Source: Sphingobacterium arenae | GTDB lineage: Bacteria > Bacteroidota > Bacteroidia > Sphingobacteriales > Sphingobacteriaceae | Direction of reading: 5' to 3' | Length of the DNA stretch: 64,000 nucleotides | Assembly: GCF_014692505.1 (NCBI RefSeq) | Contig: NZ_JACNYK010000002.1 | Coordinates: 434,001-498,000 of the forward strand | Part shown: positions 5,702 to 54,662 of the stretch, in pieces | Numbering within the stretch: position 1 is the stretch's first letter | Layout of the letters: every line of letters begins with the position of its first letter | The notes under the pieces: model-generated | What the model saw: the letters and a program-made list of their open reading frames with translations, nothing else | Databases searched by the model: none | What the model was told of the DNA's origin: nothing | Position numbers and translations under genes: made by a program

Positions 5702-7147
5702 TTATCTATAGTATTCATTCTGTTCTACTCCTTCACCTCTTCTGATCTCCTCGATATGAATTGGCCATACCAGACTTAAGGGGTGAATATCAATTCCTAC
5801 CCGTTCTTTAACTATCTCAATAGCTTTGCCATTGCGAACCAGATCAAACCAACGTTGTCCTTCATAGGTAAGCTCAAACTTTCTTTCTTCCAATATAAAA
5901 TCTTTCAAATATTCCGGATAGAAAATATCCCGATCAAGATATTCGGATTCTGGTATTTCAAAATCTACACCTCCGGCTCTATTACGAATTTGATTAACCA
6001 AATCCATTGCGGCCCTTCGGTCATCATCTGTATCTCCTAAATTAACGATGGCTTCAGCTTTCAATAGATACAGGTCTGCTAGTCGTAATAGGACAATGTT
6101 ACGCGTGTCTACGTCAGAGCTGAAACCGATTGTAAATTTGGTTACGGTATAGTTACCGCTCGAATTGAACCTGTGTGCTATGATGGCGCGCCAGTCTAGA
6201 TCATCAAACGTTTCTGCGTATTCTGGATGAGGTCTTACGATAGGGAATCCACCCGAGAGATAACTTGTCAAATATTGGTTATCGTCTCCGTCATCCAAGC
6301 TAAATGCCAGTTCAAATATTGATTCCTTGCTTCGTCCGTTATTGAATATCCCAGCATATTCAGTGGCTTGTACTCGCTCTACAAAATTGGGATCGTTCAC
6401 ACTTATCGCCGTGTTATATAGTGATGTAAGCGAGTAATTGGAATTGCTCAAAACCAAGTCTATTCGTTCTATGACCTTTTCATAATCATGTTCCCAGGCA
6501 TAGGCATGTGCATCAATAGCGTAAGCCGCAGCTCGCGTAAACGCAGTACGGTTCGTTCCTGAAGCAGGAAGCATAAGAGCTCCCTCTTCGAGATCACGGT
6601 GTATTTGCTCAAAAACCTTAGTTTGTGATTCGCGGCCATGCGGTACCAAATCATTGTTTGAAAGAAACGGCTCCGTGACAAGCGGCACATCTCCCCATAT
6701 CCGTACGAGATAAAAATAGGTATACGCTCTTAGAATATAAGCCTGTCCCATCAGATCGTTGGCTACAGCCTCTGTAATGATACGCTGCTCCAATAACTCG
6801 GGGGTATATTTCAGAACGATATTAGCTTGTTTAACCGCCTCATAAAATGTCCTCCAAGAAGCAAGTGACATACCGTTGTCCAATCTATTGGCAACGACTT
6901 TGTCGATGTTGACATTGAAAGCATTATTAAAATAAACCTCTGAACGCATATCGCCATACACCATGAAATTTACACGCAGAGCGGCCTGAAGTCGACCGTA
7001 GCCACCGTATAACACACCATAGAGATGCGCTTCTTCTGTAGGCAAGTTTGCACCAGTCCACGAGGTTGTCGGTTCAATTTCCAATATATTACAAGAGGAT
7101 ATCGTCAAACTTGCACCGAGAAAGAGATATAAAATAAATTTTTTCAT
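5702..7147 (-). CDS. RagB/SusD family nutrient-uptake outer membrane lipoprotein (PUL 1)
   Basis: SusD proteins cap the SusC channel at the cell surface and bind the target glycan. This one has a lipoprotein signal (LTISSC, Cys19), TPR-like helices with YILRAYTYFYLVRIWGDVPL (typical SusD core) and the C-terminal signature of the family: DLYLLKAEAIVNLGD, an NQIRNRAG segment and FILEERKFELTYEGQRWFDLVR. Length (481 aa) is normal. It lies 20 bp downstream of its susC partner and 8 bp upstream of the fasciclin/CBM lipoprotein, so the three are almost certainly co-transcribed. The glycan bound is not predictable, but downstream GH88 and DUF2264 genes suggest a uronic-acid-containing polymer. Confidence 0.95.
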   Translation of the reverse strand: MKKFILYLFLGASLTISSCNILEIEPTTSWTGANLPTEEAHLYGVLYGGYGRLQAALRVNFMVYGDMRSEVYFNNAFNVNIDKVVANRLDNGMSLASWRTFYEAVKQANIVLKYTPELLEQRIITEAVANDLMGQAYILRAYTYFYLVRIWGDVPLVTEPFLSNNDLVPHGRESQTKVFEQIHRDLEEGALMLPASGTNRTAFTRAAAYAIDAHAYAWEHDYEKVIERIDLVLSNSNYSLTSLYNTAISVNDPNFVERVQATEYAGIFNNGRSKESIFELAFSLDDGDDNQYLTSYLSGGFPIVRPHPEYAETFDDLDWRAIIAHRFNSSGNYTVTKFTIGFSSDVDTRNIVLLRLADLYLLKAEAIVNLGDTDDDRRAAMDLVNQIRNRAGGVDFEIPESEYLDRDIFYPEYLKDFILEERKFELTYEGQRWFDLVRNGKAIEIVKERVGIDIHPLSLVWPIHIEEIRRGEGVEQNEYYR

Positions 7148-7167
7148 CTTTATATTTTTGATATATG

Positions 7168-10100
7168 TTAGAATTGAACCCTCACACCTAAATTAAATGA
7201 TCGACTTTTTGGAAAAGAACCGTTATCCACGCCCGACACAAACGGATTCGTCGACGAGTTGACCTCTGGATCGTAGCCACTGTATTTACTCCACGTAAAT
7301 AGGTTTGTACCTGAAATATAAGCACTTGCCGACCGGATAAATAAACCTTTGAGATAATCCGAAGGTACACGATAAGTCAAGGTAATTTCTTTCAGGCGAA
7401 CAAAGGATCCGTCTTCCATATTAAAAGTAGATGGTCTGAAATTCTGCATGGAATCACCATAGCGTACCATTGGAAAATTGGTCACATCGCCCTGTTGCCG
7501 CCAACGATTCATAGCATCCTGCCCCAAGTTCCCAGTAAATGTCATCTGGTTTCTACGCCGTCTCAACTCATTCATCACCATGTTTCCCTGTGACCAATAA
7601 AAAATCATATTCAACGAAAAGCTTTCATAGGATAATTTACTGGTAAAGCCAGCGATGAAATCCGGATTGGGATCTCCGATAATTAATCGATCGTAATCAT
7701 CAATAACACCATTATTATCTAAATCTGCCCAGATCATATCACCGCCTTTGAAAACCTCCCCTGTCGCAGCACCTCTCCGGTATTGACCTTGCGTGCCATC
7801 CGGCGCGAAGTATACGTTACTCTCGTCCCGATCATAGACACCGAGTGCCTGATGCGCATAAAACACACCTATAGGCTGCCCTATTCTACCCAGTGCGTAC
7901 TCATTGACGAGGATATCATCCCCGTTGGGTAGCTCCGTAATCTTATTACGGTTCAAACTGATATTGAAACCTGTTTCCCAACGAACTTTTTTATCGATGT
8001 TTACGGTCTCGATTAGAAATTCCAGCCCTCTGTTTTCTATACTTCCAAAATTTGTCGCTACCGAAGTAAACCCTGTATAATAGTTGATCGGAAAATCAAA
8101 CAAAAGATCTTTACTGCTTTTAAGATACGCATCGGCAGTGACGTTGATTTTCCCTTTCAAGAAAGTTAAATCCAATCCTGCATTGTACTGCGTGGTCGTC
8201 TCCCAACCTAAATTAGTATTCATCAGACTGGCGTGGTTAATAATCACATTTCCATCATATCGGTTAGAAGAAGCTGAATATTCCCCCTGCCAAGCATAAT
8301 TGGAAATACTCTGATTACCCGTTATCCCCATACTGGCACGCACCTTACCATCCGTCAAAAAGGATCTCCTAATATTGCGCATAAAGGGCTCGTGGGAAAA
8401 ACGCCATCCAGCGGAAGCCGACGGGAAGTACCCAAACCGCTTATCGCTACCAAACCGGGATGATCCATCAGCTCTAAGTGTAAAAGACGCCAAATATTTA
8501 CTGGCATAATTATAATTTGCCCGCCCAAAAAAGGAAAGTAAGATACGTTCGGATTCCGTTCTTGATATAGAGGTAAAACGTGCTGCTGTTTGTATAGGCG
8601 TTACTTTCGAATCAATATGATTTTCACCCTCTAAACGGATATTTTCACTAAAATCCCGTTCTATAGCTTGTCCCAATACAACGCCAATACGATGCTTATC
8701 TATCTTTTTGTCATATGACAACGTATTTTCATTCACAAATTTATTTACGTCTCCCTGCCTAAACTTACCAAAATCTCTTCGTGGAGTAGCCGAATCGAAG
8801 GTCTTTGGCTGGAAACTGGATTGCTTTGTCTTATCAAAACTCATATAGAGACTTGTCCGAAGCGTCAAACCCTCCATCAAATCTGCCGAGACAAACTGGT
8901 TCAACGTTATTCTGTCTTGGAAGAAGTTAATCGGAACTTTCTCGGCCATGGCCAATGGGTTTCTCATTTCCCGCTGTCCTAACCAATCTACTAGTTCGCC
9001 CGTGACAGGATCATAAGGGGAAAAAACCGGATTTGTAAATAAAGCGGCCCGCAAGGCACTGTAGTTATTGCTACTCGAGGAAAGTATACGGTTGTAATCC
9101 ACATTGGTATACGACACCCTAGTTCCCGCAGATATCCGATCGGTTAATTTATAGGAGAAATTTCCCCGCATATTAAGTTGCTTATAGCCGGTAGCGACCA
9201 TGACCGGGTCGAGGTCGCGATAGCCGATGGACACTCCATAGGAGAAGGTTTCCGAGCTACCCTGCAAACCAAGGTCGTGCCGACTTTGATAGGCCGGTCT
9301 AAAGATCACATCCTGCCAATCGGTGGTACGATTATAATATGGATGATGGGGGTTGGTTACCCATAGTTGGGTAATATCCTGCCCGTTGTTGGTTCGTGCT
9401 TCCGTATAAGCTGTTCGGAATTGGTCTCCATTCATCACATCTAGCTTTCTCGATACGGCTACTAAGCTCGACGTATGGTCATATGTTACTCTCGGACGAA
9501 TTGCACCAAATTTATTCCCACCTTTAGTCGTGATGATCACCACTCCATTTGCAGCGCGCGATCCATAAATGGCTCCTGAAGCCGCATCTTTCAACACCTC
9601 TATAGACTCAATATCGTTAGGGTTTAGACTGGCAATGGGGCTAAACGTCGCATCACCATCAATGGATGAAATATTGGAAGATTCCATCGGTACCCCGTCG
9701 ATAATATAAAGCGGTTCGCTACCGCCGTTGATAGAAGAAGCACCTCTAATCTTGATGTTCGAACCCGATCCCGGCTCTCCTGAAGTTGTCACAATCTGCA
9801 TACCCGGTATCCTCCCCTGCAATGCAGAGTTGATCGTAGCTCCAGGGTTTGTTTCCATGTCTTCGGCCGAAATCGATGTAATGGCCCCCGTGACATCCCG
9901 TTTCTCTTGTGTACCATACCCGATAACAACGACCTCGTCAAGGTTACTTGCTGTTTCCCGCATTTCAACGTTCAGCGTGGTCTGGCCATTAAGTGCCACC
10001 TCTTGTGTCTCTCTTCCTAAGAAGGAAAAGACAAGAGTAGCATTCTTGGGAACACCTGACAGCGAGAAAGCACCGTCTTGGTTGGTAACGGTCGTAATTA

Positions 10101-10248
10101 CCGTTCCCTTTACGGCTACGGAGGCTCCCACTATAGGTTCACCAATCCTAAAGTCGGTAACTCTACCCTTTACCGAGAGGGATTGCGCTTGAAGAAGTAT
10201 TGGCGACAAAAGAAGTAAACACAAGATAATTTTTATCTGTAATTTCAT
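7168..10248 (-). CDS. SusC/RagA family TonB-dependent outer membrane transporter (PUL 1)
   Basis: A 1026-residue TonB-dependent transporter. It has a signal peptide ending LLQAQS, a carboxypeptidase-regulatory-like domain (VKGRVTDFRIGEPIVGASV, about residues 25-105), the TonB-box region EVVVIGYGTQ, a plug with the SusC motif DIESIEVLKDAASGAIYGSR, and a C-terminal barrel ending in an aromatic residue (GVRVQF). It lacks an N-terminal STN domain, so it is not expected to signal through FecR. This agrees with the hybrid two-component regulator encoded upstream. It imports oligosaccharides with the SusD partner encoded 20 bp downstream. The gene follows the phosphodiester glycosidase gene after 51 bp and probably shares its promoter. 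Confidence 0.96.
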   Translation of the reverse strand: MKLQIKIILCLLLLSPILLQAQSLSVKGRVTDFRIGEPIVGASVAVKGTVITTVTNQDGAFSLSGVPKNATLVFSFLGRETQEVALNGQTTLNVEMRETASNLDEVVVIGYGTQEKRDVTGAITSISAEDMETNPGATINSALQGRIPGMQIVTTSGEPGSGSNIKIRGASSINGGSEPLYIIDGVPMESSNISSIDGDATFSPIASLNPNDIESIEVLKDAASGAIYGSRAANGVVIITTKGGNKFGAIRPRVTYDHTSSLVAVSRKLDVMNGDQFRTAYTEARTNNGQDITQLWVTNPHHPYYNRTTDWQDVIFRPAYQSRHDLGLQGSSETFSYGVSIGYRDLDPVMVATGYKQLNMRGNFSYKLTDRISAGTRVSYTNVDYNRILSSSSNNYSALRAALFTNPVFSPYDPVTGELVDWLGQREMRNPLAMAEKVPINFFQDRITLNQFVSADLMEGLTLRTSLYMSFDKTKQSSFQPKTFDSATPRRDFGKFRQGDVNKFVNENTLSYDKKIDKHRIGVVLGQAIERDFSENIRLEGENHIDSKVTPIQTAARFTSISRTESERILLSFFGRANYNYASKYLASFTLRADGSSRFGSDKRFGYFPSASAGWRFSHEPFMRNIRRSFLTDGKVRASMGITGNQSISNYAWQGEYSASSNRYDGNVIINHASLMNTNLGWETTTQYNAGLDLTFLKGKINVTADAYLKSSKDLLFDFPINYYTGFTSVATNFGSIENRGLEFLIETVNIDKKVRWETGFNISLNRNKITELPNGDDILVNEYALGRIGQPIGVFYAHQALGVYDRDESNVYFAPDGTQGQYRRGAATGEVFKGGDMIWADLDNNGVIDDYDRLIIGDPNPDFIAGFTSKLSYESFSLNMIFYWSQGNMVMNELRRRRNQMTFTGNLGQDAMNRWRQQGDVTNFPMVRYGDSMQNFRPSTFNMEDGSFVRLKEITLTYRVPSDYLKGLFIRSASAYISGTNLFTWSKYSGYDPEVNSSTNPFVSGVDNGSFPKSRSFNLGVRVQF

Positions 10249-11991: not shown

Positions 11992-14900
11992 TTAGATCTC
12001 TTCCGAATTAATGTACTCTCTTGGGGTCCTGCCAAATTCTTCCTTAAAACATCGACGAAAATAATCAACATCAGTAAATCCGACACTATAAACGACTTCG
12101 TTCACATTCATTTTCTTTTGTCGCAGTAATTGTGCGGCTCTTTTCATTCTGATACTGCGAATAAATTCTATTGCCGTTTTTCCCGTAAGGGTCTTAATCT
12201 TGCGGTACAAAGCACTCCGTCCCAAGCCCACTTCTTTTGCCATTTTTTCTACATTTAATGCGGGTTCAGAAAGATTATTTTCGATAAAGTCCATAAGTTT
12301 CGCAATAAATATCTCATCGGGAGAAGTCAAGTCAACATTTTGGGGTTGTGTACTCAACTCTGTTTTATATTGTGCGATTATTTTATTACGCGACGAGATC
12401 AGATTATTGATTCTGGCTTCGAGCACATCCATCCTGAAAGGCTTGGTGATGTAATCATCCGCTCCTATCTCAAACCCTTCAATTTTATATATAACCGGAG
12501 TTCTTGCCGTAAGTAAAATAAAAGGAATATGGCTTATACGGACATCCGATTTCACTTTCTTACAAAACTCGATCCCGTTCATTACAGGCATCATTACGTC
12601 ACTAATAATAATATCTGGTACAATTTCTTTTAACCGACACAATCCTTCTTTTCCATTGACAGCAGTATGGACCGTAAACCGCTCTGAAAAAGAAGTCATC
12701 ATGAACTCCAGTAAATCTATATTATCTTCGACGATCAGCATGGTTATATTTTCGTCCAGATTATATCTTATAACTCGACTTTGTTCTGGATCAGCGATCA
12801 CACCTATATTTTCTATAAGTTCTTCTTCCTTTCTTGTCTCTATATCCTGCTGGCACAAATATTTTCGAATGAGTGGAAGCTTAATGGTGAAACATGTATA
12901 TCCAGATTGATTGCTTTTCTCTCTGTTGCTTTTAACGGTCAGATCCCCTCCCAACAGTTCTGCCAGACCTTTGGAAAAAGCAAGGCCAATGCCGGTACTG
13001 TTTATATTGGTCTCGTTACTATGCTGGAATTGGTCGAAAATAGTATCCATATTCTCTTCTGAAATCCCTATGCCATTATCTTCTATGTCAATGTTTATAA
13101 AATCATTATTGGTTTCATCTGGTTTTATTTTCACCTGTATTTCTCCCCCATCTTTGCTAAATTTCACCGCATTGGACAACAGATTGTACATTATTTTTTC
13201 CAGTTTATCTTCATCAAACCATAAAGGTAGATCGGTGTACTCCGCATATAATTTTAGCTGGATATTGTGCTGGGCGGCATAACTTTCGAACACCACACAT
13301 ATCTCCTCGATAAATTTCACCAAATCGTTTTCTGTATTTTTCAGCAACATATGACCCGATTCAAATTTCCTAAAATCGAGCAATTGGTTGATCAATTTGT
13401 TTAATCGTTCTCCATTCCGTTGCATCATGACCAGCTGAGGTTTCAGCTTGCTGCCTTCTCTGCTGCTCTTAAGCATTTTATCCAACGGAGCTAAGATAAG
13501 TGTTAAGGGCGTTTTAATTTCGTGGGATATATTTGTAAAGAAGTTTATTTTTTGTTCGACAAGTGCCCTATCCTTCTCGTTGCTCAAATGCTTGTAATGA
13601 AGTTCATTTTTAAGTTTAGCTGTTTTCAGTGAATAATAATAAAACAGGTATATTAATCCAAACCCCAAAGCGATATAAATACAATAAGCCCACCAAGTCC
13701 TCCAAAATGGGGGGAGGACAATCACTTCTACCGTACGGACATAATCGCTCCATATACCATCGTTGTTTGTCGCCCTCATGCTAAAACGATATTTTCCCGG
13801 AGCAAGGTTAATAAAAGTTGCTGTACGCTGGTTTGCTCCTAAATAGTTCCATTCCTTGTTGCCTCCGCCTTCCAGACGATAGGCATATTCATTTTTCTCC
13901 GGAGCGACAAAGTTAAGGGCAGCAAACTTAAAAGATATGGAGCCGTGGTCATGTGGCAGTGTGATTGCATCGTCATAAATACTGGGATATCTGTCATTTT
14001 CTGATGGCAAAGCCCCCTGTATCTCCACATTAGTCAATACAATGTTAGGCATCAATTTGTTGCGCTGGATTTTTTCTGGAAAAAACCAATTGATCCCCTT
14101 TATTCCTCCAAAGAACAGCGCGCCTTTCCGAGATTTCATGACCGCTCCTGTCGAAAACTGATTACTTTGCAGACCATCGCCCATGACATATTTAGATATC
14201 ATCAGGCTATCGCTGGGAATGAAAACGCCTTTTCGTGTCGGTCTAATTCTTGACAAGCCTTCGTTGGTACTTATCCATATACTGCCGTCAGAACCTTCGC
14301 CAATTGCACGCACCACTCTATTCCCCCGTTCGGATCCCGTAATGCTGTGAAACCTACCTGTAAGAGAATCGAACATATCCAGACCAGCCCCATCTGTTCC
14401 AATCCATAAATTTTCTTCCGAATCAATAAAAACCGATAAAATAGCATTACTGTTTAAGCTATATCCTTTATTTGGAGTATCTTTGTATGTCCGTATTTTT
14501 TTAGTTTTCGTATCAAAATAATTCAGGCCATTTCGAGTTCCTATCCAAAGATTGCCCCGCTTGTCCTGCACCATAGTCCGTATATGATTTGTGCCAATAC
14601 TATGAGGTTGATTAGGATGGTGTAAGAAAGTTGACACCTTGCCCTCTGCATCCATAAATCGTAACCCACCTCCATTCGTACCTATCCATAATCCCTCTTC
14701 TGTATGGACAAGCGCAGAAATCTGATGACTTCCAAACAGTTTATCGTCTCCCACGACATAACTTCGATAAGTTTTGTCTCTAATGTCAAAAAGATGCAGT
14801 CCATAAGAGGTCCCTATCCATATATGACTACTGTCTTTATACGTCAGCGCCTTGACAATATTTTTGAAGAATTTGTCTTCTCCCCCCGACAAGCCAAAAG

Positions 14901-16113
14901 AATAATAAGAGAATGAATCACTATGCTGGTCATAGTAATTAAGTCCGCCCCCCTCGGTGCCGATCCATAATCCTTGGTTTTTGGCTTCCAATATACTGCT
15001 GACCACAGGATGGTTCAGCCCACGATTTCCAGCTTTCTTTCCAGCAATCGTGTGGAACTGTGCACGATTAGGAGAATAGATATTTACCCCACCGGCAAAT
15101 GTCCCCAACCAGATATTACCGGCGTTATCTTGCATGAAATTACGTACAGAATTATAGCTGATCCCATGTTGGTTATTAGGATCGTAGACATGTCTACTGA
15201 CTGTACCACGCTCCAGATCGATGATGCCAAGCCCTTCCAGTGTACCCACCCATACTTCTTTATTTGATTTGAAAAAGATACCTCTCACCGTATTGCTCGG
15301 CAAAGAGTTTTTAATACCCAATCCTCTTTTCTCATAATGAATACAAGTTTCATGTGTCGAATCGTAAACAAATAAGCCATTGGATTCAGAACCAAACCAT
15401 ATCCGACCGATACTGTCCTGCTGGATTGCCCTAACGTAATAGCTAGCCAGCTGCTGGATGGGCTCTGGAAGTGGCAACCGTTGACCATTTTTGGAATCAA
15501 ACAGCGATAACCCCGAGGTGGTACCTATCCATATTTTTCCCGAACGGTCTTTGAGGATCGTATGTGCTCTGTTGCCATGTACGACACCTACGTGTTTTGC
15601 AAAATCATAGAGGTGCTTTTCCTGGAGATCGTATCTTTTCAGTCCTTCTTTCGTACTGATCCATACATTGCCGTCATCATCGGAAAACAACGCATGGATG
15701 AAATTCCGGGTGTAAGGCTCTGCGGTAGATGAAGTGGTGTTGATACACTCAAAGACATCCGCTTTTTTGTCATAGACATTCAACCCATCTGCAGTCGCCA
15801 CCCATAAATGGCGGTCTCCGACTTCAATAATGGCATTGATAAAATTATTACTGATTCCTCCGTCTTTACGATGATTTCGCTTATAATGTTTAAACTCATA
15901 ACCGTCATATCTATTCAGTCCATCTTCCGTTCCGATCCATACAAACCCCTCTCTATCCTGCAACATGCAAAACACATTGTTTTGAGAAAGGCCATCATTG
16001 ATATCCAAGTGCCTAAAAGAAAACAATTGTTGTGCATCTGTATTTGTAGGGAAATACAGTAGATAAAATATAAACAAAAAGAATAATGAATACTTATTCT
16101 GAGCAACTAACAT
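11992..16113 (-). CDS. Hybrid two-component system sensor/regulator (HTCS) with propeller sensor and AraC output
   Basis: One-protein two-component system that senses a glycan fragment in the periplasm and activates a polysaccharide operon. In order it has: a hydrophobic signal/anchor (SLFFLFIFYLLYF); fourteen or so two-component-propeller repeats of the VWIGTxxGLNRYD type; a Y_Y_Y domain; a transmembrane helix near position 13650; a histidine kinase (NISHEIKTP, phosphorylatable His codon at 13522-13524) with ATPase domain; a receiver (IISDVMMPVMNG, Asp codon at 12598-12600); and a C-terminal AraC helix-turn-helix ending FGRTPREYI. The reading frame is open to 16218. I chose the ATG at 16113 because it sits right before the signal sequence, and 16143 is an alternative. 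Its probable target is the SusCD operon that follows in the same direction. Confidence 0.93.
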   Translation of the reverse strand: MLVAQNKYSLFFLFIFYLLYFPTNTDAQQLFSFRHLDINDGLSQNNVFCMLQDREGFVWIGTEDGLNRYDGYEFKHYKRNHRKDGGISNNFINAIIEVGDRHLWVATADGLNVYDKKADVFECINTTSSTAEPYTRNFIHALFSDDDGNVWISTKEGLKRYDLQEKHLYDFAKHVGVVHGNRAHTILKDRSGKIWIGTTSGLSLFDSKNGQRLPLPEPIQQLASYYVRAIQQDSIGRIWFGSESNGLFVYDSTHETCIHYEKRGLGIKNSLPSNTVRGIFFKSNKEVWVGTLEGLGIIDLERGTVSRHVYDPNNQHGISYNSVRNFMQDNAGNIWLGTFAGGVNIYSPNRAQFHTIAGKKAGNRGLNHPVVSSILEAKNQGLWIGTEGGGLNYYDQHSDSFSYYSFGLSGGEDKFFKNIVKALTYKDSSHIWIGTSYGLHLFDIRDKTYRSYVVGDDKLFGSHQISALVHTEEGLWIGTNGGGLRFMDAEGKVSTFLHHPNQPHSIGTNHIRTMVQDKRGNLWIGTRNGLNYFDTKTKKIRTYKDTPNKGYSLNSNAILSVFIDSEENLWIGTDGAGLDMFDSLTGRFHSITGSERGNRVVRAIGEGSDGSIWISTNEGLSRIRPTRKGVFIPSDSLMISKYVMGDGLQSNQFSTGAVMKSRKGALFFGGIKGINWFFPEKIQRNKLMPNIVLTNVEIQGALPSENDRYPSIYDDAITLPHDHGSISFKFAALNFVAPEKNEYAYRLEGGGNKEWNYLGANQRTATFINLAPGKYRFSMRATNNDGIWSDYVRTVEVIVLPPFWRTWWAYCIYIALGFGLIYLFYYYSLKTAKLKNELHYKHLSNEKDRALVEQKINFFTNISHEIKTPLTLILAPLDKMLKSSREGSKLKPQLVMMQRNGERLNKLINQLLDFRKFESGHMLLKNTENDLVKFIEEICVVFESYAAQHNIQLKLYAEYTDLPLWFDEDKLEKIMYNLLSNAVKFSKDGGEIQVKIKPDETNNDFINIDIEDNGIGISEENMDTIFDQFQHSNETNINSTGIGLAFSKGLAELLGGDLTVKSNREKSNQSGYTCFTIKLPLIRKYLCQQDIETRKEEELIENIGVIADPEQSRVIRYNLDENITMLIVEDNIDLLEFMMTSFSERFTVHTAVNGKEGLCRLKEIVPDIIISDVMMPVMNGIEFCKKVKSDVRISHIPFILLTARTPVIYKIEGFEIGADDYITKPFRMDVLEARINNLISSRNKIIAQYKTELSTQPQNVDLTSPDEIFIAKLMDFIENNLSEPALNVEKMAKEVGLGRSALYRKIKTLTGKTAIEFIRSIRMKRAAQLLRQKKMNVNEVVYSVGFTDVDYFRRCFKEEFGRTPREYINSEEI

Positions 16114-16235
16114 TATATTCCGGAAATGTTTGAACCATCTCATAAAGTCATTACTATTATACAGCTTGAAAAAACAGTTTCGCAATTTGGATAAAATCGA
16201 TAGCCAGCTGTTGGTCAAGGAGTAAATATAAGCTT

Positions 16236-16572: not shown

Positions 16573-19266
16573 TCATTTAACTCTTGGGTATAAAGTGGAT
16601 CCCGTTTCTAACAATTCCATCGACCATAAGGCACTTAGTGCGGCATATTTAGCGGCTGCCAGTGATTCTCCATGTACAGGCTTTGGAAACGTTGGCGAAA
16701 GGAATCCCATAGCAGACATCGATGTGTTGGCCCCAAAGCTCCATATATACTTCAGCAGAACGGCACGGTTGCTAGCCGTGTTACGTATAAATTGCTGATA
16801 ATAAAGTAAAGGCAGGGCTCGTAAAGTGGAACGAGACCCCAAATCATACATATCGTTTAATTTCCCTTGATAGAGCGGTGGTAAGAAAGACAAATCTAAG
16901 TTTTCACGGATTGTCTTTTTGATCGTTTTGTCATTTGTTGTCAACCAGACCCAAAACAACGCTTCTGCCTGGTAATATCCAGCTGCAGAATATCGTGCAT
17001 TTATATAGAATTTAACGTTTCGATCTGCGATTTTCTGGTACAGCTCATTGTTAGGATGGTCGTCGATATAGGCTGCGTAAACTTGTGCGGCCAGGATATC
17101 AGCGAGGACCCATGACGGTCCTGTTTCCTGACGACTGCGCCCAGCCTGTCCAAGACCGTACAAACCAGCGGCGGCATTCCCCTTCGTATATTCCTCCGGT
17201 ATGCTTACTTTTAAAGAGTCAGATTTAGTCTCGCTAATATAGAATGTCTCCGCCCAGTCTAGAAAGCGATAGCAGACATCCAGATAGGCCTTTCTCTTCA
17301 TTTCATCTTTTACATAGCGGGACAGCTGGAATAAAGCCAATGCCATCTGCCCTCCATCGGCTACGTTGTAGCCACAGGCATGTTCGGAGTAGCCCATCGG
17401 AAGAGCGCCACTGGGCTGTTGTCTTTCGACAAGCATGTCGCAAAAGCGGATAGCACTTTCCAGGATGTCGTTTGGAGATATCTTTGCCCAGAGGTCCGTA
17501 TTCTTCGCCAGATGTTCAGGGTTTCTTTCCAGAAAATCCAAATAGGCTAACATGGCCCGAACGCCATACGCGTCTCCAAAATAGTGGTGACTATAGCGAC
17601 CGTCGGGATATTTTTTCTGTGCGTTAACAAGGTGAATGAATGCCTGCAACATGGAACGCTCCACATCTACTGTTTCATTTATGCGGTCATGAGAATCAGG
17701 AGTTTCCAGCTCAATGCTCCAATCAAACTGCTGGAAGGAAAAGCCCGTCGGCACCTCCCCGAATTGTATAATTCTGTCAAGTGTCTCTCCCGGTGAAATT
17801 TCTACATCTACCTTCTTTTGGGGTATACCCTCGATATGCAAAGAAAGCTTTCCTTTTGCCGTTTTTGCAGTAGGGTTTTGAAGAGTAATGACAAACTTAG
17901 GAACAACACTTTCCTTGTTCTTTTGAATCGTTGTATTGATCGTTGTTTTCAAAACACGGGGTGTATGCAGGATATAATCTGCGACGCCGACCAATGTGTT
18001 TCGTAACTGCGGCTGTGCGACGATGCTTTGGGGGCTAAAACCAAATACGGCAATCGAGGAATGTTTATAGGGTCCACCCGCATGGATATCGAGACGGGCC
18101 ACTATGTTTCCATCGTCGGTTGTCAAAAGCGGAATAATGCGTTTTTCTCTATCCATACGGTGATCATAAGTACTTTTGGTATCCGTTCCATTCAATGATC
18201 CGGGAAATTCGGCAAGTGTATTTGCCAAGATGGTGACATCCTGAACGGTCTGTTGTGCTATCTCTCCGAAAGGAGAACCTTTGGCCGAGATGATGTGTAC
18301 AGCGTCCTTTATAGACATGGATTGGAAAAAGGGATCTATAATCCATTGCGGTAAAATGGTTTCGTTCTCCTGAAAGGGTAGCGACAAGGGGCTAAGCGCT
18401 GATGTGGGGGCATATATATCGGTCTCATTTTCACAGAGGGAAACATCCGCAATGGCAAAGACCATGCCTTTTTCCCGCCAGACAGTCATTAAGTTAGTAC
18501 CCATTGCCAGCGAATCTATACGGGAAGGGTCGAGTAAAGGGTACACCATGTCTGTCGCGTGCCAACCTTCTGGTAGAAAATCAGCCAGCGAAACGGTGTA
18601 ATCTTCCCACCCCAGAGATAACGGAACAAATGTGATCCATTTTTTGTTATCGCGATCTTTAATTTGTAGCGATAACAGATCCATATAATGGTTACCTTTC
18701 GCTTTAAAGGTTAATACCGACCTTTTAGGGGCAGCCTCTTTTACTATAGAAAACTGTGCATATATATCACGCATTCCTCTTTTCTCTGTAGCGAATTCTA
18801 ACCCTTTCCCGGTGCTGTTTGGAAGATCTACGGTCTGGATAGTCGGCTTGTCCATGGATGCTAGCCTCGGTGTCCTTGGCGGTTCGATTATCTGGTAATC
18901 ATCGATATTTTTGAAGTCAACTACAACCACAGGATTCACAGGTTCAGGCCTATAATCAAAGCTAGCTGAACCGACAACGATGATATTTCCTCCGTTTGCG
19001 AGATACTTACTGATGGTTGGTCGGCTTTCCGATGGGCAGGGAGTATCGCTACCTATTAACAGGAGGCGTCCTTGATCAACGGAGATGTTCAATAGGCTGT
19101 CAGCTGTTATATTCCGTACCTCCATTTTTTTTTCTGCTAACTCTTTTTTCAATGCTGTAGACTGGTTTAATATTTCTCCAAATACCATTATGCGCTCTTG
19201 CGCAGACAGCACTAAGGGAAAACATATAAACATCGACAGATACGCCAAATAAACGTGCTTCAACAT
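16573..19266 (-). CDS. Large secreted multidomain protein of unknown function, possible glycosidase or lyase
   Basis: An 897-residue protein with a signal peptide (ending VLSAQE). I do not recognise it as a named enzyme family. Residues about 25-105 look like a Rossmann/glutamine-amidotransferase-like fold (RLLLIGSDTP, YLANGGNIIVVGSASF). Residues about 140-290 have the look of a jelly-roll carbohydrate-binding domain (FKAKGNHYMDLLSLQIKD, WEDYTVSLADFLPEGW). Residues about 300-440 return to an amidotransferase-like pattern, and 440-550 to an Ig-like strand pattern. Residues about 550-890 are helical with YPDGRYSHHYFGDAYGVRAM, GYNVADGGQMALALF and GPSWVLADILAAQVYAAY, like an (alpha/alpha)6 toroid of glycoside hydrolases or lyases. 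It is the last gene of the second SusCD operon, 57 bp after susD, which is where the dedicated enzyme of a locus often sits. Confidence 0.75.
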   Translation of the reverse strand: MLKHVYLAYLSMFICFPLVLSAQERIMVFGEILNQSTALKKELAEKKMEVRNITADSLLNISVDQGRLLLIGSDTPCPSESRPTISKYLANGGNIIVVGSASFDYRPEPVNPVVVVDFKNIDDYQIIEPPRTPRLASMDKPTIQTVDLPNSTGKGLEFATEKRGMRDIYAQFSIVKEAAPKRSVLTFKAKGNHYMDLLSLQIKDRDNKKWITFVPLSLGWEDYTVSLADFLPEGWHATDMVYPLLDPSRIDSLAMGTNLMTVWREKGMVFAIADVSLCENETDIYAPTSALSPLSLPFQENETILPQWIIDPFFQSMSIKDAVHIISAKGSPFGEIAQQTVQDVTILANTLAEFPGSLNGTDTKSTYDHRMDREKRIIPLLTTDDGNIVARLDIHAGGPYKHSSIAVFGFSPQSIVAQPQLRNTLVGVADYILHTPRVLKTTINTTIQKNKESVVPKFVITLQNPTAKTAKGKLSLHIEGIPQKKVDVEISPGETLDRIIQFGEVPTGFSFQQFDWSIELETPDSHDRINETVDVERSMLQAFIHLVNAQKKYPDGRYSHHYFGDAYGVRAMLAYLDFLERNPEHLAKNTDLWAKISPNDILESAIRFCDMLVERQQPSGALPMGYSEHACGYNVADGGQMALALFQLSRYVKDEMKRKAYLDVCYRFLDWAETFYISETKSDSLKVSIPEEYTKGNAAAGLYGLGQAGRSRQETGPSWVLADILAAQVYAAYIDDHPNNELYQKIADRNVKFYINARYSAAGYYQAEALFWVWLTTNDKTIKKTIRENLDLSFLPPLYQGKLNDMYDLGSRSTLRALPLLYYQQFIRNTASNRAVLLKYIWSFGANTSMSAMGFLSPTFPKPVHGESLAAAKYAALSALWSMELLETGSTLYPRVK

Positions 19267-19323: not shown

Positions 19324-20847
19324 TTAAAAAGTATAATGCGGATTCTGCTCTAATGCTTTGTTTCTATCCCAAGCATCTCTAGGGATAGGGAATAATATCG
19401 GCTGTGTTTGCAACCATGGTTTTTGATGTACGTTTAAACTCGGAAAATTAGGACGTTCTGCTTCAATAAAGTCAAGAAACCGTCCTCTCCTATTCAGATC
19501 GGAAAATCCTCCCGTCGGCTCCCATATAAATTCCATCCTTCGCTCTTTAAAAATCGCATCTAAAGTCTCTGTTTTTGATAAAGTAAGAGGTAAGTCAACC
19601 AGACCTGCCCGATCTCTGATCTTATTCACCTGAACTATAGATTCTTCTGTGCGGTCTCTTTCATTCAAAGCTTCGGCATAGTTTAGCACTATTTCGGCAA
19701 ACCGAATCACTGGTGCATTGACGCCAGAATTATTCAGCGTCGGTTTTTGCCAATATTTGGTCATAATATATCCAGAATGTGACCAGCCAGCCGGCACATT
19801 ATCGGGCATCACAAAAGCTGACATATCTTGGTGACGTTCACCCGGACCAATAATTGTTGCCCAATATCTTTTGTCAATGATTCTTCCGGAACCGTCTGTT
19901 TCATGCGCATCTACCCAATGCTGCTGTGGCACAAAGTTACTCCATGCAGCACCACCTGTAAACTCAGCAGGTGCACCTCTAGGTGCTGTACGTTTCACAA
20001 GATTGTTTCCTTCAGCATCCACGCCTTCCCTAAATTGAGTAGAAAACAATATCTCCGCATTATTCTCATTTTCTTCCATAAAAACGGAACGGTAATCCGG
20101 CAATAATGTATATACTTCTTCTTCAAAAAGCGATTCTGAAATGGCAATTACATCATCAAACTTTTCCTGCCACAAGTAAGCTTTATTCAATAAAGCCTTG
20201 CAAGCTCCCGAAGTAACCCTTCCAACATCATTTCCCGTCCATGTAGCCGGTAACAAATCTTTCGTCTCATTTAGATCATTTTCTATTTGCTGCCATACCG
20301 CTTCTGCTGTAGCACGAGGTATCTGTAAATCGGAATTAGCATTTAAAGGCTCCGTAATCAATGGCACACCACCGAAATATGTTACCAAGCGATAGTAGAA
20401 CAATGCCCGAATAAATTTCGCCTGTGCGATAATTTGTTTTTTTGTTTCCTCTTCGCCTTCTTCCATTCCGACAACTTTTGCAATGACTACGTTAGCTCTG
20501 CTTATCCCTTGATATGCGGCGGAATAAACATCCCTAAGAATTGTATTTGTAGACGGTAATGCCAAGGAATGCAATTCGATCCGATTTGCACTACCATCCA
20601 TCTCGTACATATCACCCGATACGGCCCATTCAATATCGGCGGCATCCCGTACGTTAGAAAAAGCTTCCTCTTTTTGAAGCGTGGCATAGACACCTGTCAA
20701 CGCAGCTTCCGCATCGGATATATTTAGAAAAAACTCATCTTCAATCAATGTATCCTTTGGTGACAAGGACAAAAAATCATCGCTACATGCTAAGCATAGC
20801 AACGTAGCTAAAAATAAAAAAGTGTTATGTATGTATTTCATGATCAT
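19324..20847 (-). CDS. RagB/SusD family nutrient-uptake lipoprotein (PUL 2)
   Basis: SusD-type glycan-binding lipoprotein. The lipobox is LLCLAC near residue 21. The family core is visible (FIRALFYYRLVTYFGGVPLI) and so is the C-terminal signature (VIRFAEIVLNYAEALNERD, QVNKIRDRAG, TLDAIFKERRMEFIWE, DLNRRGRFLDFI). The C-terminus ends in the usual IPxxxxDxNKALEQNPHY pattern. The length of 507 aa is typical. A second ATG lies six bases inside (20841). It is 12 bp downstream of its susC partner and upstream of the 897-residue unknown protein, all on one strand. The substrate is unknown. The shared operator in front of the operon links it to nagA and hence to amino-sugar metabolism. Confidence 0.95.
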   Translation of the reverse strand: MIMKYIHNTFLFLATLLCLACSDDFLSLSPKDTLIEDEFFLNISDAEAALTGVYATLQKEEAFSNVRDAADIEWAVSGDMYEMDGSANRIELHSLALPSTNTILRDVYSAAYQGISRANVVIAKVVGMEEGEEETKKQIIAQAKFIRALFYYRLVTYFGGVPLITEPLNANSDLQIPRATAEAVWQQIENDLNETKDLLPATWTGNDVGRVTSGACKALLNKAYLWQEKFDDVIAISESLFEEEVYTLLPDYRSVFMEENENNAEILFSTQFREGVDAEGNNLVKRTAPRGAPAEFTGGAAWSNFVPQQHWVDAHETDGSGRIIDKRYWATIIGPGERHQDMSAFVMPDNVPAGWSHSGYIMTKYWQKPTLNNSGVNAPVIRFAEIVLNYAEALNERDRTEESIVQVNKIRDRAGLVDLPLTLSKTETLDAIFKERRMEFIWEPTGGFSDLNRRGRFLDFIEAERPNFPSLNVHQKPWLQTQPILFPIPRDAWDRNKALEQNPHYTF

Positions 20848-20859
20848 TATCTTAACAAA

Positions 20860-23800
20860 TTAAAAACCTACTTTCACGCCAAACATATACGTTCTGGGCA
20901 TCGGGTATACGCCATTGTCTACACCACTCGCCAACGGGTTTGTATCTCCAATTTCGGGATCAAACCCCGAATATTTTGTAAACGTGAACAAATTCTGTAT
21001 CGACGTATACACTCGCAGCCGTTTGAGCATATTTGTATTCTCAAATAATCCTTGTGGCAATGTATATCCCAACGTAAAATTCCGCAGACGTAAATAGGAA
21101 CCATCTTCGATATAGAATGACGATAGGTTGGCGTAATTACCGTTTAAATCCGTGTATTTCAAAATAGGTACGGTATTTCCGCCATTTTCCGGCGTCCACC
21201 TGTCTAATACATCCGCAGAAGCATTGATAACACCACTTCCACCAAAATATTTAATTGGATATGTACTGAATTTATTGACATGGAAAATATCATTGCCTGA
21301 AACTCCTTGAAACATGAGGTTCAAATCAAAATTCTTATAAGACAGGTCTATATTCATACCATAAGTAAGTTTTGGCCAAGGAGAGCCTAACATAACCCGG
21401 TCTTCGTCTGAAAGCACATTATCGCCGTTGACATCCCTGAACTTAAAATCTCCAGCAGAGGCATTCGGTTGAAATGTCTTATCAACCTCCTCATCTGATT
21501 GGTAGATTCCTTCTACAACATACCCCCTAAAATATCCAATTGGCAGTCCCACTTCGGTATAAGAACTATTCATGCTCGTAAACCCGACAACGGGTCCGCT
21601 GATCGGATTTCCGGCACCTAATGACAGCACTTCATTTTTCAAGGTAGAAAGATTGACACTGACATCATATTGAAATGCATTTCCTGCACCATAGCCTACT
21701 AGCAATTCGAAACCTGAATTTCTGATTCGACCGCCATTCACAGAAGGTGCTGATTCAAATCCTGCTTCCAACGAAACGGGCAAACTTACCAACATATCCC
21801 GTGTATCTTTAACATAGTACTCGGCAGTCAAGTACCCTCCTCCGTTCAAAAATGTCGCGTCTACACCGAAGTTCCACTGCTCGCTGGTTTCCCACTTCAA
21901 ATCCGAATTACCCGGACGTATCATGCCTGCCCCCGTAATCAGACGTTGGTCTGTCCCGAGAATATAGTTATCAGCCACGCGGCCTAAACCAAATGTGCTA
22001 GAATAACCAAATGCGCCGATAGCATCATTTCCTAATTGTCCCCAACTGGCACGCACTTTCAAGCTATTGATTGCTCCGTCAGCATTAAAAAAAGACTCTT
22101 CAGAAATATTCCAACCGGCGGATACTGACGGGAAATTCCCCCATTTGTAAGAGGGCCCAAAATTAGATGAACCGTCACGACGAATACTTGCCGAAAACAG
22201 GTATTTATTATCAAATGAATAGTTTACCCTTCCCAAGTAAGAAGCTAAGGTATACATTGAGCCTGTACCCGTTCCCCTTCGTTCTGACTCAGAACTCGTG
22301 TTGATTACACGGATGGTTTCATTTTGAAATTCACGTGCTGTAATCGAAATCCAATCATTTGTATTTTTTTGTGCCGTTTGTCCGACAATGAGAGAAAGAT
22401 TATGCCTGTCAAACGTCTTATTATAACTCAGCGTATTTTCAATCAACCAGTTGAGTCCCTGATCCTGCCTTTCGCTCAACACGGCCTGAGGGTTACTGTA
22501 AAAACCACGTTGTATTTTGGGTTGCCAAGTCGTCCCTCGATTAGATAGGAAATCTAAACCAATACTACTTTTGAATTTTAAACCTTCCATAATCTCGAAT
22601 TCACCAAAGGCATTTCCATAGAGACGGAGATTATTCAAGTAGTTTTCCATCGACTTCGCTCTCAAATAGGGATTATCGCCCTGCGTGGAGTAAAATGCAG
22701 ATGAGCCGCTGACAACATCCTCTCGTCCCAGAGTCGGGTAGAACTGCTGTGCAAGGTTGAAAATACCTAGTCTAAAATCTTCATTCCGTTGTCCCTTACC
22801 CTGTATATAAGAAAAAGCCAAGCTACCTCCGAAGTTCAGTCTATCTGTCGCTGTAAGATCTACATTGGCACGTCCGGTATAACGTTTATTCCACGTTTCC
22901 ATTAAAGTGCCTTGTTGATCTCTATACCCTAGTGACAAGGCATTTCTTATTTTTTGGTTTCCACCCGTCAGCGACAAGTCCACATTATACATGGGTGCTG
23001 TACGAAATACTTCATCTATCCAGTTCGTTCCATGCCCGAAGCTACTTGGGTTTTCCCATTCGGGATTGGTTGCCATATTAGAGTTTTGATACAGCTCATT
23101 TGCCAATGTGGTAAACTGCTCCGCATTCAGAAATTTAGGCTGTCTCCATAAGTTCTGGAAACCGGTATAAGCATGTAAGTCCGCTGTGGTAACACCCTCT
23201 TTTCCTCTTTTAGTGGTAATGAGGATCACACCGTTTGCAGCGCGAGCTCCGTAGATAGAAGCAGCTGCCGCATCTTTTAATATCTCGATTGATTCAATAT
23301 CATTGGGGTTGACGATCGACATACCGTCAATATTGTCTGTACTCCCGTTAATGGCTATATTCGATCCTCCGACCGGGAACCCATCGATGACATACAGCGG
23401 CTGATTTCCTCCTGTTGTCCCCACCCCTCTGATGCGTACAGAACTCGCCCCACCTGGTGCTCCTGTCGTTTGGTTAATGGTCACACCAGGCACTTTTCCC
23501 TGTATCGCACTAGTAAAGGATGAAGCAGCCACCTTTTCCAAGTCCGAAGATTTCACGGAAGATATAGATCCTGTCATTTCTGAACGGCGTTGGGTACCAT
23601 ATCCAACCACCACCACTTCGTCAATATTGCCTTGCTGAGTCGTCATCACCACGTGAAGTGTTTCAAGATTGGAGATTAGCATCTCATTTGGTACGTACCC
23701 AATATAAGAAAAAGAGAGTGTATCACCAATATTTACACCGACAACCTCAAATATTCCTTCCTGATTTGTTAAACCTAAGGATCTGCCATCTTTTGCAGAC

Positions 23801-23970
23801 ACCGTAACACCCGAGATCGGTTGTCCCGAGGTATCCACCACCCTTCCTTTTAATCTTTGTTGTATGGACTCCGACGTCCACCTGAATTTCACTATTTCCC
23901 CCGCAGCAAACACTATCTTCGCTAGTGCAAAAAACAATAAAATACATGTTAAACAGATTTTTCTTCTCAT
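20860..23970 (-). CDS. SusC/RagA family TonB-dependent transporter (PUL 2)
   Basis: TonB-dependent oligosaccharide transporter. The frame is open up to 24186, but the upstream 72 codons run through a transcription terminator and a promoter, so the start is the ATG at 23970 (MRRKICLTC, giving a signal peptide ending VFAAGE). Domains: a carboxypeptidase-regulatory-like domain with LKGRVVDTSGQPISGVTV, TonB-box region EVVVVGYGTQ, a plug with NDIESIEILKDAAAASIYGAR, and a barrel ending in an aromatic residue (FGVKVGF). There is no STN domain. It is first in an operon with susD and the unknown 897-residue protein. A TACGTA-centred operator and a promoter-like TTG-N21-TATATTCG pair precede it. Confidence 0.95.
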   Translation of the reverse strand: MRRKICLTCILLFFALAKIVFAAGEIVKFRWTSESIQQRLKGRVVDTSGQPISGVTVSAKDGRSLGLTNQEGIFEVVGVNIGDTLSFSYIGYVPNEMLISNLETLHVVMTTQQGNIDEVVVVGYGTQRRSEMTGSISSVKSSDLEKVAASSFTSAIQGKVPGVTINQTTGAPGGASSVRIRGVGTTGGNQPLYVIDGFPVGGSNIAINGSTDNIDGMSIVNPNDIESIEILKDAAAASIYGARAANGVILITTKRGKEGVTTADLHAYTGFQNLWRQPKFLNAEQFTTLANELYQNSNMATNPEWENPSSFGHGTNWIDEVFRTAPMYNVDLSLTGGNQKIRNALSLGYRDQQGTLMETWNKRYTGRANVDLTATDRLNFGGSLAFSYIQGKGQRNEDFRLGIFNLAQQFYPTLGREDVVSGSSAFYSTQGDNPYLRAKSMENYLNNLRLYGNAFGEFEIMEGLKFKSSIGLDFLSNRGTTWQPKIQRGFYSNPQAVLSERQDQGLNWLIENTLSYNKTFDRHNLSLIVGQTAQKNTNDWISITAREFQNETIRVINTSSESERRGTGTGSMYTLASYLGRVNYSFDNKYLFSASIRRDGSSNFGPSYKWGNFPSVSAGWNISEESFFNADGAINSLKVRASWGQLGNDAIGAFGYSSTFGLGRVADNYILGTDQRLITGAGMIRPGNSDLKWETSEQWNFGVDATFLNGGGYLTAEYYVKDTRDMLVSLPVSLEAGFESAPSVNGGRIRNSGFELLVGYGAGNAFQYDVSVNLSTLKNEVLSLGAGNPISGPVVGFTSMNSSYTEVGLPIGYFRGYVVEGIYQSDEEVDKTFQPNASAGDFKFRDVNGDNVLSDEDRVMLGSPWPKLTYGMNIDLSYKNFDLNLMFQGVSGNDIFHVNKFSTYPIKYFGGSGVINASADVLDRWTPENGGNTVPILKYTDLNGNYANLSSFYIEDGSYLRLRNFTLGYTLPQGLFENTNMLKRLRVYTSIQNLFTFTKYSGFDPEIGDTNPLASGVDNGVYPMPRTYMFGVKVGF

Positions 23971-24037
23971 AGTAGTGTTTATTTGATTTCGTATAAATAT
24001 ATGTAACCCCATAATTTTGTTTATAAGTTTCACATGA

Positions 24038-24052
24038 TGGGTACGTACACGA
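24038..24052 (-). promoter_or_regulatory. TACGTA-centred operator and promoter in front of PUL 2 susC
   Basis: The minus strand reads TCGTGTACGTACCCA and overlaps the end of a -7-like element TATATTCG. A TTG lies 21 bases further upstream, which fits the Bacteroidota promoter layout (TTG, about 20 bp, TAnnTTTG with one mismatch). The site is 68 bp before the susC ATG. Binding here would block transcription initiation. The same 15-bp pattern precedes the phosphodiester glycosidase gene, the Gfo/Idh operon and nagA. Confidence 0.65.
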
Positions 24053-24090
24053 ATATACATACCCCAATTGTAAAAAACCAATTTTACTTT

Positions 24091-24136
24091 AAAGAAAAAA
24101 CGGCTCGCTATCTGTAACACTACAGACAGCGAGCCG
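24091..24136 (-). terminator. Rho-independent terminator after the Gfo/Idh-MFS operon
   Basis: A strong hairpin with 16-base arms (24101-24116 and 24121-24136, a single mismatch, 4-base loop) is followed on the minus strand by TTTTTTCTTT (24100-24091). It lies 81 bp after the stop of the lipoprotein Gfo/Idh gene and just before the PUL 2 promoter, so it separates the two transcription units. Confidence 0.85.
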
Positions 24137-24216
24137 GCTCTCTTGTCATCTACTTTTACCAATGTTTTGATGAGATTTGTGATCAAAAAAACACATGGGT
24201 TATCTTCTCGATGACT

Positions 24217-25605: not shown

Positions 25606-25606
25606 C

Positions 25607-26926: not shown

Positions 26927-26933
26927 CCTTTAT

Positions 26934-28283: not shown

Positions 28284-28289
28284 AACAAA

Positions 28290-29411: not shown

Positions 29412-30617
29412 TCATTCAGTATGTCTTCTATATACAATCTTCCCTTTCACCATCGTATATTGGACCTGAAAACTATTGTCTAAGATAACAATATCCGCAT
29501 CTTTTCCGATATCGATAGATCCCTTCTCTTCCTCGACCTTCATCACCCGTGCTGGATTCATCGTGATCATGCGGATAACTTCTATCAAAGGGATATCCCC
29601 TAAATTTAACATCGTCCTAACTAATCTATCTGTAGTGGCCACACTTCCCGCAAATGCAGTTCTATCTTTAAGTTTAGCTACGCCGTCTTCCACAAGCACC
29701 TCTATACCATCGTCGTAGCTCCCGAGTATTGATATTGTATCGTCGGTTCCGGCCGCACGCATGGCATCCGTTATCAATACCATTTTTTCTGGTCCTTTTA
29801 TTTTATAGATCAATTTCAATAATGGATCAGGAAGATGCACACCGTCCGCAATAAGTTCGACATCAAAATCGTCAATTAAATAGCCTGCTTCTACAACCCC
29901 AGCATACCGAAAAGCATCCCGCCTCGTAACCCCAGACATAGCTGAATAAAAATGGGTCATCAGATTATATCCCACCTGATGCGCCTTCTCTACATCTTCG
30001 TAAATGGCATCCGTATGGGCGATGGCGGCAATGATATCATTCGCGACCAAGTATTCTCCAAATGCCAATGCCCCCTCCAATTCTGGGGCCGCACTCCATC
30101 GAACGATACTTTTGTACTTATCTATCAAAGCTTTATATTCATCTGGATCAGGATTCCGTATATATCTGGGATCCTGTGCTCCTCGCTGGCTTTGTGCAAA
30201 ATAGGGTCCCTCTAGATGAATACCCAATAAGTCTGCCCCATCCTTAGCGTATTTTTTTACGCTTTCATAGCTCTGTAATGTCTCTTCCAATCGGTCTGTC
30301 GTCGTTGTCAGCGTAGTGGGAACAAGGGAAGTTGTGCCAAATCGCGCATGAGTTTTTGCTATTTGAATAAAAGCTTTTTCTGTCCCATCCATAAAATCAT
30401 ACCCACCTCCACCATGGATATGGATATCAATAAAACCTGGAGAAAGATATTGCTGATTCACATCAATCTGCGTATATCCGTCATATTTATCCAGATATAA
30501 AAGCTCATATGCTGGAATTACAGACTTGATTTTACCATTCTCTACTAACACTCCGCCATCTATTATGGTCTGTTGTAAGATTATTTTTGCATTATAAAAT
30601 AACGTCGGTTTCGCCAT
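29412..30617 (-). CDS. nagA: N-acetylglucosamine-6-phosphate deacetylase
   Basis: NagA removes acetate from GlcNAc-6-phosphate, giving glucosamine-6-phosphate for NagB and glycolysis, in the cytoplasm. Family landmarks are present in order: the metal-site HxH in FIDIHIHGGGGYDFMDG (about residues 62-78), HLEGPYF with the metal-binding Glu, the AIAHTDA histidine, LMTHFYSAMSG (usually THLFNAM), LIADGVHL and the catalytic Asp in LITDAMRAAG. The 401-aa length fits. It is a single-gene unit with its own operator 22 bp upstream. The same operator in front of two glycan operons suggests that they are induced by an amino-sugar metabolite. No nagB or nagK is in the window, although a ROK kinase is encoded at 42911-43789. 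Confidence 0.95.
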   Translation of the reverse strand: MAKPTLFYNAKIILQQTIIDGGVLVENGKIKSVIPAYELLYLDKYDGYTQIDVNQQYLSPGFIDIHIHGGGGYDFMDGTEKAFIQIAKTHARFGTTSLVPTTLTTTTDRLEETLQSYESVKKYAKDGADLLGIHLEGPYFAQSQRGAQDPRYIRNPDPDEYKALIDKYKSIVRWSAAPELEGALAFGEYLVANDIIAAIAHTDAIYEDVEKAHQVGYNLMTHFYSAMSGVTRRDAFRYAGVVEAGYLIDDFDVELIADGVHLPDPLLKLIYKIKGPEKMVLITDAMRAAGTDDTISILGSYDDGIEVLVEDGVAKLKDRTAFAGSVATTDRLVRTMLNLGDIPLIEVIRMITMNPARVMKVEEEKGSIDIGKDADIVILDNSFQVQYTMVKGKIVYRRHTE

Positions 30618-30638
30618 TTTAGGTTTATTTTTATTTCC

Positions 30639-30653
30639 TGTGTACGTACACGA
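30639..30653 (-). promoter_or_regulatory. TACGTA-centred operator in front of nagA
   Basis: The minus strand reads TCGTGTACGTACACA, containing the perfect 12-bp palindrome GTGTACGTACAC. It lies 22 bp upstream of the nagA ATG and about 7 bp after a -7-like AAAATTTG, so it covers the likely transcription start. This is the most symmetrical of the four copies and is the best clue to the ligand of the regulon, since NagA handles GlcNAc-6-phosphate. Confidence 0.65.
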
Positions 30654-30807
30654 AGGTACAAATTTTTTCTATTTATCAAAATTTAACCTAAAAAAGTTAC
30701 ATTTTTTTCATTACCTCCTAGCTATCGATAGCTCCTGTATAAATCCGTAGTTTAGAGTTTTGTCAATCCTACACTTAAATAACGTAAAGATTCCTATTTT
30801 TGCCGTT

Positions 30808-31017: not shown

Positions 31018-31019
31018 CG

Positions 31020-32819: not shown

Positions 32820-32990
32820 ACTTAAGTTTATCATATATAAATTAATTTAAACCTAACGAAATTGCCGAGTACATGCAAGCGTTGTTGCAACACAATCGAT
32901 TGCTTAAAAAATGTTAAGAACCACAGCGACGAGATTTTGGATCCGTGGAGATGCTCATCCATACCATTAGAGACGAATACCAATGACTAA

Positions 32991-52741: not shown

Positions 52742-52770
52742 ATTGCTAAATTATATTTTTATCATATTTA

Positions 52771-54654: not shown

Positions 54655-54662
54655 TACTAAGT

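Follow-up and report, generated by a model that had tools for sequence, protein, structure and literature searches.

An 897-residue secreted protein of Sphingobacterium arenae ends in a domain that is modelled as an (α/α)6 toroid, matches no existing family, concentrates its conserved loops on one face and is encoded in a glycan-utilization region. On balance, we favour the interpretation that this is a probably periplasmic multidomain enzyme, of an uncatalogued toroid family, acting on a glycan of glucuronate and N-acetylhexosamine. More tentatively, it may be the founding member of a new CAZy-type (α/α)6 family that has an inserted CBM-like/GATase-like N-terminal half and an undescribed uronate/amino-sugar specificity. 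The features of the protein, and of the 64,000-nucleotide stretch of DNA that was analysed as a whole (the window), are collected in Table 1.

Table 1. Positions in the window of the gene, its domains and candidate residues, and neighbouring genes.
Feature	Position	Strand	Basis
Whole gene, 897-aa secreted protein	16573..19266	(-)	ORF list, relatives, dN/dS
Signal peptide, residues 1-23, SPI type, no lipobox Cys	19198..19266	(-)	Read from translation
GATase-like α/β part A, residues 24-135, no conserved Cys	18862..19197	(-)	Model secondary structure, profile matches
CBM-like β-sandwich, residues 140-282	18421..18849	(-)	Foldseek
GATase-like part B, residues 283-435	17962..18420	(-)	Model secondary structure, sequence-pattern inference
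Ig-like β-sandwich, residues 436-534, directly before toroid	17665..17961	(-)	AlphaFold2 models, alignments with GH9 structures spanning the region
(α/α)6 toroid, residues 535-897, presumed catalytic domain	16576..17664	(-)	Model, VIA-align, hhalign, loop conservation
D565, invariant, loop H1-H2, candidate catalytic acid/base	17572..17574	(-)	Five-way alignment; putative role
D637, invariant VADGG motif, start of H4, candidate catalytic residue	17356..17358	(-)	Alignment; putative role
DUF2264 protein, GH154-type glucuronate dehydratase	1631..2860	(-)	Nearest solved structures: glucuronate dehydratases, formerly GH154
GH88 unsaturated glucuronyl hydrolase	2893..4146	(-)	Family match
CBM96/fasciclin/cadherin-like protein, conserved with SusCD 5702-10248	4197..5693	(-)	Families, gene order
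SusC and SusD, conserved partners of the 897-aa gene	5702..10248	(-)	Gene-order comparison, families
Hybrid two-component sensor (HTCS), just downstream of the 897-aa gene	11992..16218	(-)	Family match
SusD and SusC immediately upstream of the 897-aa gene, adjacency not conserved	19324..24186	(-)	Gene order
NagA (29412-30617) and GH123 (31020-32834)	29412..32834	(-)	Family matches

Sequence relatives and family searches

The open reading frame is intact at exactly these coordinates and runs for 897 codons from an ATG start. Its translation begins with the signal peptide LSMFICFPLVLSA/Q, in a region of which residues 2–19 form a helix in the AlphaFold2 model. Codon comparisons give a dN/dS of 0.12 against the gene of Sphingobacterium SGR-19 and 0.08 against that of S. 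chuzhouense, indicating that the gene is under purifying selection and thus encodes a functional protein. The description of the product in the initial annotation, a secreted protein of 897 residues, is borne out by these results.

No Pfam or NCBIfam profile matched the protein at E ≤ 1, and PDB sequences yielded nothing meaningful (best E of 0.45 with the single sequence and 0.19 with a profile). Relatives were sought in whole genomes and in one genome per species. The close relatives share 91% (SGR-19), 76% (S. chuzhouense), 67% (SGG-5) and 46% (Parapedobacter SGR-10) identity, and a distant relative of similar length and the same architecture, from another genus of the same family, shares 22%. 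An even draw of the order's genomes contained a match in 6 of 400. Searches of viral contigs and of plasmids returned no relatives, the search of the phylum returned, besides the gene itself, only weak matches to the N-terminal domain, and the search of the distant homologue's own genus returned only that homologue. The scan of genome contigs was restricted to two peptide patterns, and the family may therefore be wider than found here. Within the available parts of the literature on glycosaminoglycan loci, no description of this architecture was found. The toroid protein is rare and, judged by its sequence, matches no existing family, as the initial annotation had it.

The SGR-19 copy (L005 10001-12691) is a mosaic. 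Over most of codons 120–660, it is 91–99% identical to the window gene; over codons ~660–840, it is 88–89% identical to the S. chuzhouense gene and 72–82% identical to the window gene. This pattern suggests recombination within the toroid.

Domain architecture of the N-terminal half

AlphaFold2 was run with five sequences, giving a mean pLDDT of 57 for the full length and 63 for residues 432–897. At this modest confidence, the models and fold searches delineate a GATase-like domain, a CBM-like β-sandwich that is apparently inserted in it, an Ig-like domain and a C-terminal toroid, in agreement with the amidotransferase-like, CBM-like and helical-toroid parts named at the outset. In the CBM-like part, Foldseek aligned CBM11 (1v0a, TMt 0.60) and CBM4-2 (1k42, TMt 0.58), and the Parapedobacter relative shows a weak CIA30 match (E 0.076). 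Residues 26–106 gave weak profile matches to other proteins, one of which reads like a cellulase-type glycosidase. Across six sequences, the GATase-like domain contains no conserved Cys. Class I glutamine amidotransferase activity was rejected because the nucleophilic Cys is not conserved. A GATase-like stretch is also present in the C-terminal half of a GH2 protein that the same genome encodes just beyond the window (L042 14191-17136; contig C12 428191-431136), as judged by eye from the 97% identical homologue of SGR-19.

A toroid outside the known families

The (α/α)6 pattern that had been noticed in the C-terminal third corresponds, in the model, to a toroid of twelve helices spanning residues 535–886. 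VIA-align comparisons of this domain gave a Z of about 20 to cellobiose 2-epimerases (AGE), GH9 exo-glucosaminidases and GH76, a value that exceeds the baseline given by the tool for models made of helices but that, being tied across unrelated toroid families, identifies the fold rather than the family. With hhalign, the toroid scored 93% over 287 columns against two generic toroid proteins of 401 aa, which had first been retrieved by a search with this same toroid profile; the reversed profile scored 0.1%, and the match dropped to 35% without the distant relative. These two, G884 and G971 of the class search, themselves weakly match several toroid families. Homology to complement TED domains and alpha-2-macroglobulin was rejected, since the thioester motif (CxEQ) is absent from the translation.

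The toroid showed no significant similarity to the profiles of GH9, GH88, PL8, PL35 or GH154. Membership of GH88 was rejected given the lack of a PF07470 match and hhalign P values of 0.036 and 0.14, which are not significant; membership of the GH154 glucuronate dehydratases was rejected given the lack of a PF10022 match and of significant profile similarity.

The GH9 family requires separate consideration, as a highly divergent GH9-type inverting glycosidase would be a special case of the reading that we favour, with D565 serving as the base after helix 1 and E867 as the acid before the last helix. The protein has the GH9-type order of an Ig-like domain followed by a toroid, as seen in the models and with VIA-align. 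The structures 3h7l and 6gdt align over both domains with a Z of 18.1 and 17.6 (376 and 373 residues, 16% identity), a second VIA-align comparison gives a Z of about 20 to GH9 exo-glucosaminidases and, by eye, the spacing of the acidic residues is like that of GH9. However, the position aligned with the DAGD motif of nine GH9 sequences reads HYFGD, and the Z of about 20 is equalled by unrelated toroid families. The distant relative has a Glu opposite E867, near the C terminus, only after alignment by hand, in a region where the alignment is uncertain. GH9 membership itself was rejected on the absence of a PF00759 match at E ≤ 1 and on hhalign P values of 0.03 to 0.07, which are not significant; a search of the S. 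arenae genome gave no PF00759 match over the cut-off. We regard a GH9-type mechanism as quite improbable.

Conservation of one face of the toroid

No other domain of the protein is as well conserved as the toroid. Among the four close sequences, the invariant fraction in loops 1–2, 3–4, 9–10 and 11–12 of one face is 0.93, 0.68, 0.74 and 0.54, and in loops 5–6 and 7–8 of the same face it is 0.48 and 0.38; the long loop 5–6 is poorly modelled. On the opposite face, the corresponding fractions are 0.44, 0.33, 0 and 0, with the exception of loop 8–9, which consists of three residues. Residues that remain invariant in the five-way alignment with the 22% relative include D534, Y562, F563, D565, G568, R570, Q616, MGY 624–626, VADGG 635–639, W719, YQAE 765–768, G810 and R812. 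This distribution looks like that of an active site. The initial annotation had pointed to conserved-looking aromatic and histidine residues in RYSHHYFGDAYG; Y562, F563, D565, G568 and R570 are indeed kept, but the histidines are not family-wide, as H560 is Asn in two relatives and the distant relative reads KFSGVYFVDSRG at this site.

The location of the conserved residues bears on whether the protein could be a non-catalytic glycan-binding or scaffold protein with a degenerate toroid. Such a role would suit the CBM-like and Ig-like domains and a GATase-like domain without its Cys, and purely binding toroids exist, TED domains being among the top Foldseek matches of the protein. Yet conservation is strongest in the toroid, in loops that carry invariant acidic residues, and not in the CBM, and the signal peptide lacks the lipobox for surface display. 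We consider this explanation unlikely.

Genomic context

Gene order was compared across five genomes. The SusCD pair at 5702-10248 has counterparts near the gene in SGR-19, S. chuzhouense and SGG-5 (59–97% identical), as does the CBM96/fasciclin protein in all three. The adjoining pair at 19324-24186 is 96–97% identical in SGR-19 and S. chuzhouense but lies 20–25 kb from the gene there. That these proteins are so similar yet displaced, while the 897-aa protein is only 76–91% identical, indicates that gene sets have been shuffled between loci. By gene order, the gene is last in a SusCD operon in this genome, as initially described, although that SusCD is displaced in SGR-19 and S. chuzhouense; the pair that stays near the gene in the three other Sphingobacterium is 5702-10248, and the distant relative also clusters with a SusC and a SusD. 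The accompanying statement that the operon has no other enzyme was misleading, as genes for GH88, the GH154-type dehydratase, GH123 and NagA all lie within about 15 kb. Because the adjoining SusCD is not the conserved partner and the locus holds several enzymes, we discard the argument from position that this is the main degradative enzyme.

In SGR-19, a PL35-like lyase is encoded directly downstream on the opposite strand, where the window has the HTCS (L005 12778-14745 / L035 12886-14853). In Parapedobacter, the neighbour of the gene encodes a PL8 lyase, most similar to chondroitinase ABC, and the locus includes a GH88 74% identical to that of the window. Genes for SusC, SusD, a Gfo/Idh protein and a DUF6259 protein form a cluster with the distant relative, all on one strand. 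Enzymes of the PL8 or PL35-like type and GH88 relatives occur, nearby or elsewhere, in six of six genomes, so the 897-aa gene is not needed to explain depolymerization. S. chuzhouense and SGG-5 have a compact cluster of a DUF5017-α/β hydrolase, the 897-aa homologue, DUF5017, SusC, SusD, the CBM96 protein and a SASA esterase. As these clusters otherwise encode esterases and binding or transport proteins, the homologue is the only candidate there for an enzyme other than an esterase.

Several further genes of the window were noted. Between the HTCS and the conserved SusCD, 10300-11712 encodes a protein that combines a phosphodiester glycosidase (NAGPA) domain with two TIG domains. Upstream of the 897-aa gene, at 24217-29288, a NagP-like transporter is surrounded by three oxidoreductases of the Gfo/Idh/MocA kind, of which one or more have a TAT-like signal; the nearest PDB entries to the 449-aa oxidoreductase are 8tdf/8tdh, not GH109. 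A third SusC/SusD/DUF5017 set, at 51815-58148, is related to the set near the gene in Parapedobacter and SGG-5 (SusC and SusD 47–54%, DUF5017 protein 30–33%).

Proposed function

In the favoured reading, catalysis would take place in the C-terminal toroid, in an active-site cleft built from the conserved loops at one face. D565 and D637 are candidate acid/base residues, R570 and R812 may bind a uronate carboxylate, and the CBM-like and GATase-like domains may hold the substrate or support oligomerization. The soluble signal peptide suggests a periplasmic location and action on imported oligosaccharides. The neighbouring genes point to a substrate of acidic oligosaccharides from a glucuronate/N-acetylhexosamine polymer, which would be glycosaminoglycan-like and probably O-acetylated. 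Imported by the conserved SusCD, this polymer would be processed by the 897-aa protein alongside GH88, the GH154-type dehydratase and lyases. The activity of the GH154-type family is that of a glucuronate dehydratase (PMC12269599). The early guess of a glycosaminoglycan-like, amino-sugar substrate fits with GH88, the GH154-type dehydratase, GH123 and NagA in the window and with the PL35-like and PL8 lyases of the relatives.

Alternatively, the toroid might be a uronate lyase or epimerase, in which Y562, Y626, R570 and R812 neutralize the carboxylate and abstract the C5 proton, and the resulting unsaturated ends feed GH88. GH88 requires unsaturated substrates (PMC12269599), and invariant Tyr and Arg residues are found in the cleft loops; furthermore, the distant relative has a sub-threshold C5-epimerase match (E 0.006), and a 52-column stretch is weakly similar to PL35 (P 0.0021). 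However, the PL8 and PL35 glycosaminoglycan lyases carry a β-sheet domain after the toroid (for PL35, see PMC12269599), whereas here the Ig-like domain comes before the toroid and nothing follows it. The role would also be redundant in the two relatives that already have a PL8 or PL35-like lyase beside the gene. We hold a lyase or epimerase to be rather unlikely. Given the lyases beside these relatives and a domain order unlike that of PL8 and PL35, we give a glycosidase some preference over a lyase and slightly favour hydrolysis over elimination and epimerization.

The initial suggestion of a new hydrolase or lyase family, or of a binding protein, thus survives in its emphasis on an uncatalogued toroid with active-site-like conservation in a glycan locus, but without the argument from position. 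If catalytic, the protein would represent an additional family among the glycan-degrading enzymes of environmental Bacteroidota, and it could fill a gap, or bring a specificity of its own, in the breakdown of glycosaminoglycan-type polymers. This is testable in the compact loci of S. chuzhouense and SGG-5, where the gene is accompanied by esterases only.

Comparison with known systems

The GH9 exo-β-D-glucosaminidases (3h7l, 6gdt, 5dgq), which are among the top VIA-align rows, likewise have an Ig-like domain and then an (α/α)6 toroid; the 897-aa protein differs in its extra GATase-like and CBM-like domains and in having neither PF00759 nor DAGD. Cellobiose 2-epimerases/AGE (4z4l, 5zig) have the toroid fold in common (Z about 20), with no sequence similarity detected, and are single-domain enzymes. 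The PL35 and PL8 glycosaminoglycan lyases also contain a toroid, are encoded beside relatives of the gene and probably share its substrate class, but the 897-aa protein has another domain order and no match to either family. GH88 belongs to the same toroid fold class and is encoded in the same locus, with a profile match that is not significant.

The closest described system is PUL25 of Bacteroides caccae, which comprises PL35, GH88, GH109 and GH154 (PMC12269599). The likeness lies in the GH88 and GH154-type dehydratase of the window and the PL35-like lyase of SGR-19; the available portion of the PUL25 description includes no protein with the 897-aa architecture, and GH123 and NagA are found near the gene in place of the GH109 of PUL25. 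It is plausible that the 897-aa protein, a candidate enzyme, represents a family that is new, in a type of system that is itself well known, a region for the utilization of a glycosaminoglycan-like glycan.
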